From Alphaproteobacteria bacterium (GTDB lineage Bacteria > Pseudomonadota > Alphaproteobacteria > Sphingomonadales > Sphingomonadaceae): DNA of 11,875 nt. Every line of letters starts with the position of its first letter. Within the stretch, counting starts at the first letter, position 1. Position numbers and translations under genes: made by a program. The notes beneath the pieces were generated by a model. The model saw only the letters and a program-made list of their open reading frames with translations. It did no database searches and had not been told where the DNA came from. The stretch covers positions 1 to 11,875 of the forward strand of contig JAENVZ010000167.1 of assembly GCA_016650315.1 (NCBI GenBank). Reading direction: 5' to 3'. This document shows, in pieces, positions 5,057 to 8,043 of the stretch.

Positions 5057-5737
5057 ATGACGTCCCTGATCGCCGCATGTGTGGTTTTCGTGGGGAGTCA
5101 TTTCCTCCTGTCCCATCCTTTGCGCGCGCCTTTGATCGCGCGGATGGGGAAAGGCATGTTCCTGGCCTTTTATTCGCTGGTCGCGCTGATGAGCTTTCTG
5201 TGGATGATCTATGCCTTTCGCGCGACGCCTGGCGGCACGGCCTATTGGGCATCGTCAGATGCTCTTTGGGCCATAGCGAGCGCGGCCATGCTTTTTGCCA
5301 GCATATTGTTTGCAGGATCGCTGTCGGGCAATCCGGCACTCCCTGACCCCCGCGCCCGGATGTATGTGACCAAGCCAGCCGAAGGGGTGTTTACCATCAC
5401 CCGCCATCCAATGATGTGGTCGTTCATCCTTTGGAGTACAGTACATATCGTCCTGATGCCGACCAACGCCAATATCGTCCTGGCGGGCAGCATCATCTTT
5501 CTCGCCTTTTTCGGGGCGTTGGCGCAGGATCGCAAGAAGGTGCGGCAACTGGGAACGGGATGGCAGGGGTGGCGCGGGCGGACGGCCTTTGTCCCTTTCG
5601 GGATGCAATTGGCCGGAAAGGCGGGATGGCGTGATGCCATTCCTTCCATGGGAGAATTCACCGCCGGTACGATCATATGGCTGGGTGCAACCTGGGCGCA
5701 TGGCGGTATGGGGGCGGGGATCTGGCGCTGGATATAG
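5057..5737 (+). CDS. NnrU-family integral membrane protein
   Basis: A 226-residue membrane protein of the NnrU family, with about five or six hydrophobic segments. It begins TSLIAACVVFVGSHFLLSHPLR; His15, His20, His117 (TRHPMMW) and His130 are the notable histidines, of the kind that could ligate haem. NnrU was named for a gene needed for nitrite/nitric-oxide reductase activity in Rhodobacter, and the plant haem enzyme 15-cis-zeta-carotene isomerase (Z-ISO) belongs to the same family. No denitrification or carotenoid gene lies in this window, so the function here is open. The ATG at 5057 was chosen because AAGGTG (5045-5050) lies 6 nt before it; a GTG at 5048 would add three residues. It follows the peptide transporter by 40 nt. 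The C-terminus after residue 185 is unremarkable. Confidence 0.85.
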   Translation: MTSLIAACVVFVGSHFLLSHPLRAPLIARMGKGMFLAFYSLVALMSFLWMIYAFRATPGGTAYWASSDALWAIASAAMLFASILFAGSLSGNPALPDPRARMYVTKPAEGVFTITRHPMMWSFILWSTVHIVLMPTNANIVLAGSIIFLAFFGALAQDRKKVRQLGTGWQGWRGRTAFVPFGMQLAGKAGWRDAIPSMGEFTAGTIIWLGATWAHGGMGAGIWRWI

Positions 5738-5857: not shown

Positions 5858-7198
5858 ATGAGCAGGAAGTTTTTCGGGACCGACGGCATCCGTGGTCGTA
5901 CCAACGCCTGGCCGATGACGGCGGAACTGGCGATGAAGGTCGGCATGGCGGCGGGCGCGCATTTCCAGCGGGGCACACACCGGCATCGCGTCGTGATCGG
6001 CAAGGATACCCGGCTTTCTGGCTATATGGTCGAAAATGCGTTGGTCGCGGGTTTTACCAGCGTTGGCATGGATGTGGTGCAGTTCGGTCCCATCCCGACG
6101 CCTGCCGTCGCCATGCTGGCGCAAAGCATGAGGGCCGATCTGGGCGTCATGATCTCGGCCAGCCACAATCCCTATTTCGATAATGGAATCAAGCTGTTCG
6201 GACCTGATGGTTACAAGCTTTCCGACGAAGACGAGTTGAAGATCGAATCCCTGCTGGAGAGCAATATTCCGCTCGCCAGTTCGCAGGACATCGGCCGCGC
6301 CCGCCGGGTAGAGGATGCGCGGGGCCGCTATATCCATGCGGTGAAGTCCAGTTTCCCCCATCATTTGCGCCTCGATGGCCTGAAAATCGTGATCGATTGC
6401 GCAAACGGCGCGGCCTATCAGGTGGCGCCCTCCGCACTATGGGAATTGGGCGCGGAGATTGTTGCCATTGGCGTTAGCCCTGATGGCCTGAACATCAATG
6501 ATGGCTGCGGATCGACCGCGCCCTTGTCATGCCAGGAAACGGTGGTGGCGTCGGGCGCGGATATGGGCATCGCTCTGGATGGCGATGCGGACCGGCTGAT
6601 CGTGGTCGATGAAAAGGGCCAGATCATTGATGGCGATCAGATCATGGCGCTGATTGGCAGTAGCTGGGCCAGGGCGGGAACGCTGCGCGGGGGCGGTCTG
6701 GTCGCTACGGTCATGTCCAATCTGGGGCTGGAACGGTTCCTGAATGGGCAGGGGATCGACCTTGTCCGCACGAAGGTGGGCGATCGTTATGTGCTCGAAC
6801 AGATGAAACGGGGCGGTTATAATGTCGGCGGGGAACAGTCGGGCCACATGATCCTGACCGATTACGCGACCACGGGCGATGGGACGATTGCGGCGCTGCA
6901 GGTGCTGGCCGCCGTGGTTGCAAGCGGCAAGCCTGCCAGCGAAGTGCTGCATCAGTTCGATCCGGTGCCGCAGCTTTTGAAAAATGTGCATTATACGTCT
7001 GGAAAGCCGTTGGAAAATGACGCTGTAAAGCAAGTGATCGCGGGTGCGGAACGGGAACTGGACGGTTGCGGCCGGCTGGTGATTCGGCCTTCAGGCACGG
7101 AACCTGTCATTCGCGTTATGGCAGAAGGCGACCGTGAAGATCAGGTGCGCGACGTGGTCGATCGTATCTGCGCGGCGGTGGAGCGGGCGGCGACTTGA
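5858..7198 (+). CDS. glmM: Phosphoglucosamine mutase
   Basis: Interconverts glucosamine-6-phosphate and glucosamine-1-phosphate, a cytosolic step towards UDP-GlcNAc for peptidoglycan and lipid A. The 446-residue product is full length for the family (E. coli GlmM is 445). It shows [13 protein letters not shown] at the start; the active-site loop [12 protein letters not shown], with the phosphorylated Ser102; the Mg2+-binding DGDADR (241-246); the sugar-specificity loop GGEQSGH (324-330); and the phosphate-binding loop RPSGTEP (410-416). No key residue is missing. The start is fixed by the family N-terminus, though the Shine-Dalgarno is weak. It opens a compact cluster, its TGA overlapping the thiD start by three nucleotides in TTGA. 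The 120-bp upstream gap holds the tandem repeat and no convincing promoter boxes. Confidence 0.97.
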
Positions 7199-8043
7199 AC
7201 AGCATCGCGCGCATATTGGTGATTGCCGGGTCCGACAGCGGCGGCGGAGCGGGGATACAGGCGGACATCAGGACCATCACCACGCTGGGCGGTTACGCGA
7301 TGACCGCGATCACGGCGATCACGGCGCAAAATACGCTGGGTGTGCAGGGTGTGCATCCGGTGCCTGTGGACATGGTACTGGCGCAGATTGACAGCGTAGT
7401 TACCGACATCGGCGTGGACGCAGTGAAAATCGGTATGATCGGTTCGGCGGGAACCGCTCAAGCGGTGGCCGATTATTTATTCGCTCTCGATCGTCGTTCC
7501 CGCGAAGGCGGGGATCCATCTCCCATGCCGGTCAAGCAAAATTTGGCGTCAGGAGATGGGTTCCCGCCTTCGCGGGAACGACGAAATTTTGTTCCCATCG
7601 TCTTTGATCCTGTCATGGTTGCGACCAGCGGATCGGTTCTGGCCGATGCGGACACTATTGCCGCCTTCGAACGGTTGATACGGATTGCTACGGTCGTCAC
7701 GCCCAATATTCCTGAGTTGGAAGCCTTGGGCGGCGATGGTATTGCCAGTCTTCTTGGTTGCACCGTGCTGGCCAAGGGTGGGCACGGTGCAGGCGGCATA
7801 TTGGTGGACCGGCTGTTCGATGCAGGCGGCGAGATCGCCCGTTGGGAGGACGCACGCATCGACACGCCCCACACCCATGGCACCGGCTGCACGCTGGCGA
7901 GCGCCATTGCAGTCGGGTTGGGGCAGGGCATGACGCTGACCGGCGCTATTGCGCGGGCGCGGCACTATGTCCGTGCTGCCCTGTTGGCGGCACCCGGTCT
8001 GGGCCATGGCCACGGGCCGATGGGGGTGCCGCGCGATGCCTGA
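7195..8043 (+). CDS. thiD: Hydroxymethylpyrimidine (phosphate) kinase, with in-frame palindromic insertion
   Basis: Phosphorylates HMP and HMP-P to HMP-PP in the pyrimidine branch of thiamine synthesis; ribokinase fold, cytosolic. Family signatures: [19 protein letters not shown] (9-27), VKIGMIG (78-84), [11 protein letters not shown] (136-146), [10 protein letters not shown] (169-178), KGGHGAGG (194-201) and the anion-hole motif THGTGCT (227-233). It starts with TTG at 7195, overlapping the glmM stop in TTGA; no ATG or GTG fits the family N-terminus. The odd part is residues 99-130, encoded by the palindromic element at 7491-7584. They read [12 protein letters not shown]...PPSRERR and fall between the helix [11 protein letters not shown] and the strand [10 protein letters not shown], where ordinary ThiD proteins have only a short turn. 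Without it the protein would be about 250 residues, the usual size. The frame is intact on both sides, so the enzyme is probably functional, with an extra surface loop. It overlaps rnhB by 8 nt. Confidence 0.94.
7491..7584. repeat. 94-bp palindromic (REP/BIME-like) element inserted in frame in thiD
   Basis: Two 33-nt arms (7491-7523 and 7552-7584) are inverted copies that differ at only two positions. Both differences would form G-U pairs in RNA, so all 33 pairs can form in the transcript. The 28-nt centre holds a further 5-bp stem (7525-7529 with 7545-7549). Each arm contains its own small hairpin, TTCCCGC-GAAG-GCGGGGA in the left arm, so the element looks like two REP units facing each other. 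Similar CCCGCGAAGGCGGG-type palindromes are, to my knowledge, abundant between genes in sphingomonads and other proteobacteria. A copy inside a coding region resembles the Rickettsia palindromic elements. No transposase or clear target duplication is seen. Confidence 0.92.

Follow-up and report, generated by a model that had tools for sequence, protein, structure and literature searches.

The thiD gene of a sphingomonad carries, in frame, an inverted dimer of CGTC-1 REP units. The dimer belongs to a family of repeats dispersed through the home genome, relatives compared with it lack the insert, and the reading frame of thiD is kept. The gene lies in an 11,875-nt stretch of DNA (the window); this is one contig of the home genome, a 2.06-Mb MAG that is 90% complete and in 324 contigs. 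We consider it probable that a resident dimer, moved by a putative trans-acting process, inserted at a turn of ThiD, and that a tolerant loop has retained this in-frame copy. The features are collected in Table 1.

Table 1. Position of thiD and of the parts of the REP dimer in the window
Feature	Position	Strand	Basis
thiD (phosphomethylpyrimidine kinase of 282 aa), starting at TTG, frame uninterrupted by the element	7195..8043	+	ORF, Pfam, PDB alignments
Whole CGTC-1 REP inverted dimer in thiD	7491..7584	none	Arms, BLAST, RNA fold, unit structure
Left arm, REP unit	7491..7523	+	Inverted-repeat search and unit structure
Left-arm unit, CGTC tag	7492..7495	+	Counted on sequence
Left-arm unit, stem (first strand)	7496..7503	+	Counted on sequence
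Left-arm unit, loop GAAG	7504..7507	+	Counted on sequence
Left-arm unit, stem (second strand)	7508..7515	+	Counted on sequence
Left-arm unit, tail CCA	7516..7518	+	Counted on sequence
Spacer, 28 nt	7524..7551	+	Comparison of home copies
Right arm, second REP unit	7552..7584	-	Unit structure
Right-arm unit, tag	7580..7583	-	Unit structure

The element is 94 nt long. Its 33-nt arms, 28 nt apart, are 94% Watson-Crick complementary; in the window, the second-best inverted repeat reaches 75% over 32 nt. When folded as RNA, 33/33 arm positions are paired, two of them as G.U, with an energy of -77.9 kcal/mol; the preliminary description, made from the letters alone, had likewise held that every arm position could pair. 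Both units have the CGTC tag at their outer end, an 8-bp stem, a 4-nt loop and an unpaired CCA tail, if G.U is allowed. In the parts of PMC3733652 drawn on here, CGTC-1 REPs are defined by the same tag, stem, loop and tail; inverted dimers with a 20-100 bp spacer predominate, and the first two stem positions are 'almost invariably' complementary AT residues. In tag, stem, loop and tail the thiD element fits this definition, and it is a CGTC-1 REP dimer. Of its two units, one begins the stem with a G.T pair and the other with G-C, and the second stem pair is T-A; AT at the first two positions is usual in the other home copies. The thiD region had no Rfam match at the gathering threshold.

The arm repeats are not due to chance: the arm core has 35 matches at ≤3 mismatches in the home genome, and the reversed control has none. 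The search thus found the further copies predicted for a dispersed repeat. BLAST of the 94 nt, with inspection, gave 12 inverted dimers including that in thiD (11 full, one truncated), so the element is repetitive as well as palindromic, and single REP units are also present. Arms are nearly identical among the home dimers and spacers mostly differ, with similar ones at three loci (L037, L038 and L041); at least one unit with CGTC, 8-bp stem, 4-nt loop and CCA was found in each of the 12 loci. There was no target duplication at any of the nine home dimers checked, of 12, which rules out target-site duplication by insertion at those nine. Five contigs of the home genome (C77, C205, C147, C295 and C50 of G000) have a REP-like match within ~100 bases of an end, and look as if repeats broke the assembly.

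The frame of thiD is open from the TTG at 7195 to the stop at 8043, also across the element, as first described, and Pfam Phos_pyr_kin matches the product in two stretches (E 2.4e-70), confirming conserved ThiD on either side of the element. Solved ThiD-type structures align to residue 94 or 95 and resume at 130 or 131 (three alignments displayed). An AlphaFold2 model from a six-row alignment has the ThiD fold (pTM 0.77, mean pLDDT 74), and the best Foldseek matches of this model are ThiD-type kinases (best PDB match 8g1h, E 8.2e-20). Residues 103-130 of the model have pLDDT < 50 and lie between a helix (85-104) and a strand (135-137), consistent with the loop between helix and VFDPVMV strand in which the element had been placed; pLDDT is also < 50 at 46-48, 142-148, 225-229 and 269-282. 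Judging from the fold family, the turn would be expected to face away from the active site. The earlier figure of about 31 extra residues holds against relatives with a 6-nt gap (93 nt, 31 codons); the added length is 78 nt against the one congener and up to 99 nt against the shortest turns. We rejected an intein or intron-like element: thiD's own Pfam domain alone was detected, the insert is 31 codons, and it is in frame in 6/6 cases.

These six cases are REP dimers at the same ThiD turn in six genomes, all sphingomonads: that of the window, Chakrabartia godavariana, Blastomonas aquatica, B. natatoria, Sphingobium phenoxybenzoativorans and Hephaestia mangrovi (a decayed copy, L084). We compared 48 ThiD loci (45 after removal of three duplicates), a chosen set made up of the best 30 (174/298 genomes matched), five from a pattern scan and 13 picked. 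In most of the 48, the turn that counts 36 residues in the home protein is short, and the insert is absent from 39 compared ThiDs, one congener included; the segment is therefore not common to all ThiDs. The pattern scan of GTDB species genomes returned the five named inserts, all from sphingomonads, and a wider pattern found an insert in at least 4 of 397 family genomes; both counts are lower bounds, as both patterns demand certain codons. In three further ThiDs (L055, L057 and L070), which the wider pattern missed because they read LDP, this turn is taken up by a long loop of another kind, conserved and non-palindromic. Not every long loop at this turn is a palindrome.

On a tree of the ThiD core (6 REP and 39 other rows), six changes are needed, also when starred branches alone are counted, and 0% of 200 bootstrap trees have one change; these counts treat gains and losses alike. 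A single, simple ancestral insert was rejected on this basis, a gain with many losses being formally possible. The spacers of the two Blastomonas are alike, and we therefore count five safe events. The insertion points differ by a few codons and the inserted peptide differs between species. The four other CGTC-like thiD inserts share one frame, which differs from that of the window; because of this frame shared by four of five, and the similar Blastomonas spacers, some thiD inserts may have a common origin followed by losses.

Three thiD inserts match the commonest REP variant of their host. At 0-1 mismatch, the Chakrabartia arm matches 22 sites in its own genome, 2 in thiD and 20 elsewhere, and none in six other genomes searched. 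The loop of the B. aquatica insert is the variant commonest in that species' genome (14/25 exact matches listed), the GAAG loop of the window insert is common in the home genome, and the B. natatoria insert has a loop variant that is a minority one in its own genome. We counted 56 REP matches in the S. phenoxybenzoativorans genome; that of Hephaestia has two matches to the CGTC-1 pattern. The Hephaestia and Chakrabartia inserts cluster with no other insert by BLAST. Two side observations concern these loci. The Blastomonas ThiDs (L081:5783-7006 and L083:2138-3355) have a C-terminal fusion to a glyoxalase-type domain (PF00903), and just upstream of the Chakrabartia thiD start (L080, ~5200-5282) there is an open frame like another repeat family (peptides AEPVEA and RQAQGER), perhaps one seen in some TruB loops.

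All six thiD insert spans are multiples of 3, and the scan patterns set no frame condition. Over the 11 full home dimers, 32/66 frames are free of stops. The right arm of the thiD copy has AACGACG, with a changed letter that is T in 9/10 other full home dimers; a T here would create an in-frame TGA in thiD. Alone among the 11, the thiD dimer has the changed letter on both arms.

The home genome has a second dimer in frame within a gene, truB (L042:547-1536, on contig C239), where it forms residues 164-198 between TruB_N (37-159) and TruB_C_2 (213-271). In relatives, the same TruB loop holds at least five groups of palindromes without a BLAST match to each other. For a sample not chosen by score we took every third genome handle, one genome per genus in 30 genera; 29 matched and 26 had both TruB halves. 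Palindromic arms scored ≥12 in 5/26 of these loops (0/116 control windows) and ≥10 in 7/26 (1/116 control windows). Loop lengths were multiples of three in 29/29, partly because the search that yielded the loops looked for open proteins. We first assigned families by eye and afterwards tested the labels by BLAST clustering, with seven non-palindromic TruB loops left out. The clusters comprised 8 TruB loops with 4 thiD inserts (CGTC), and then 10, 5, 2 and 2; L140 (which had been labelled with the 10), L158 and two thiD inserts were singletons, and some family members are decayed palindromes.

Thirty further TruB loci were the best-scoring set, and the TruB tree, without four duplicate and three incomplete loci, has 52 rows that are thus partly best-scoring. 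Its palindrome-free rows are clustered (11 changes, as low in 0/500 shuffles), whereas family labels need 25 changes against a shuffle mean of 26.6 (as low in 42/200), nearly as scattered as the shuffles. Sisters on starred branches have different families (L133/L134/L135, L136/L150 and L143/L175).

To estimate how often dimers enter genes, we examined 40 regions in B. aquatica and Chakrabartia, which gave 31 other dimers resolved and 10 regions without. Eleven ORFs of ≥150 aa span those dimers (shorter ones were left out) and 10 were scanned; a domain was found in one, where it lies downstream of the element, and none of the 31 dimers was found within a domain. In the home genome, 2/12 dimers are in domain-bearing ORFs (9 spanning ORFs scanned; short ones at L036 and L037 left out). 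From these counts, gene insertions appear, as far as seen, to be few and to fall repeatedly on the same loops.

REPs of the CGTC and GTAG types within genes, sphingomonads included, were reported in 2013 (Di Nocera et al., PMC3733652), and truB of E. litoralis and S. alaskensis is among the REP-bearing genes. The preliminary description had suggested that an intragenic repeat in a sphingomonad would be a parallel to Rickettsia; in view of that report, the parallel is not new. The same source assigns Rickettsia RPE-6 and RPE-4 to the CGTC superfamily, and the link to the Rickettsia elements rests on it. As in Rickettsia, the palindrome is in frame within a protein gene that is still conserved and may be expressed; the differences are a sphingomonad host and the share of home dimers in domain-bearing ORFs given above. 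Likeness to published CGTC-1 dimers extends from tag, stem, loop, tail and spacer size to intragenic copies, truB as a host, and units that flank no transposase gene (PMC3733652). In the parts of that paper drawn on, an intragenic REP at the same site was seen once, in recB of two Xanthomonas, with different sites otherwise; here, in contrast, several lineages have inserts at one and the same loop, and the families found in the TruB loop are unrelated. Its text, in the same parts, does not name thiD, which its supplementary gene list may include, and intragenic REPs are not treated in the passages of PMC12306157 drawn on. Among the best-ranked titles of the literature searched, a scope outside which most subscription papers fall, there was no further report of the thiD case, the truB case or intragenic REPs. 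As far as searched, the recurrence at the same ThiD turn is new, as are the in-frame truB copy here and the at least five palindrome families in the TruB loop.

In REPINs, two inverted REPs form one long hairpin, and these dispersed elements are mobilised by RAYT transposases. The inverted pair, the long hairpin and the dispersal are shared by the elements described here. A difference is that PF01797 (Y1 transposase) has no match in the home genome, which is weak evidence because this is a 90% complete MAG; another is that the sampled RAYT loci have no recognisable sphingomonad CGTC REP alongside. A Y1 transposase is present in 27/199 family genomes, from which we examined 29 loci with a script that requires perfect stems. 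It found one stem each in L111, L116 and L129, which by eye did not resemble sphingomonad REPs, and the remaining 26 loci gave none; the same script found a unit in 12/12 home loci, yet misses some true units, including the thiD inserts of L082 and L084. We therefore rejected a RAYT-mobilised REPIN.

In the reading that we prefer, REP dimers would be inserted at many positions through a trans-acting process, of single-strand or repair type, with a putative enzyme. Within genes, a dimer would survive only if it preserved the frame, brought in no stop and lay in a loop able to accommodate ~30 extra residues. The dimer at the ThiD turn, from the helix end ADYL to the strand VPIVFDPVM, is presumably translated as a disordered surface passenger of ~31 residues on a kinase that would still be active. 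If both the turn of ThiD and the loop of TruB are tolerant in this way, they would be hit independently in several lineages, TruB by different families. Loop tolerance is the simplest reason for recurrence at the two loops. On its own it leaves the rarity of other gene hits unexplained, the scan for these being limited.

That rarity, with no other dimer of B. aquatica or Chakrabartia found inside a domain, would be expected if the two loops were preferred targets: either the insertion process or insertion of palindrome into palindrome would favour these DNA sites, keeping them filled as the occupant is swapped. The clustering of palindrome-free TruB rows beside scattered family labels, and sisters on starred branches with different families, are also consistent with this, and some insertion sequences are known to target REPs (PMC1525189, in the part drawn on here). 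However, the points of entry into ThiD are spread over a few codons, the home dimers checked have no target duplication, loop tolerance accounts for the recurrence without targeting, and the rows of the TruB tree are partly best-scoring; we therefore regard target preference as unlikely. A bolder proposal, that the ThiD and above all the TruB loops are landing pads in Sphingomonadaceae, mostly kept filled while at least five unrelated families replace one another there between sisters, is doubtful.

The very stable hairpin, and the retention of inserts in six ThiDs and many TruBs, could also suggest a benefit, where the mRNA hairpin or an Arg-rich peptide tunes ThiD or TruB expression or activity. 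We think this very improbable: the compared relatives do without the insert, the peptide differs between species, one thiD copy (L084) has decayed, and unrelated families occupy the TruB loop. An assembly artefact, which might be feared in a MAG of 324 contigs with REPs close to some contig ends, is scarcely credible given that thiD is open and conserved on both sides and that analogous inserts are at the same turn in named isolates such as Blastomonas natatoria DSM 3183 and Chakrabartia godavariana PRB40.

The thiD element is a known type of repeat, here in a gene that the parts of PMC3733652 drawn on do not mention. The ThiD turn and the TruB loop form a natural series of replicates: palindromes, whether related or not, have entered them more than once, and relatives with uninterrupted copies are at hand for comparison. 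This series makes two questions testable in harmless bacteria: how CGTC REPs move, given that they have no known transposase, and whether repeats inside genes are targeted or selected there, or instead persist as neutral passengers where a loop tolerates them. Were the loops of the family landing pads after all, there would therefore be site preference, or replacement of palindrome by palindrome, inside housekeeping genes.
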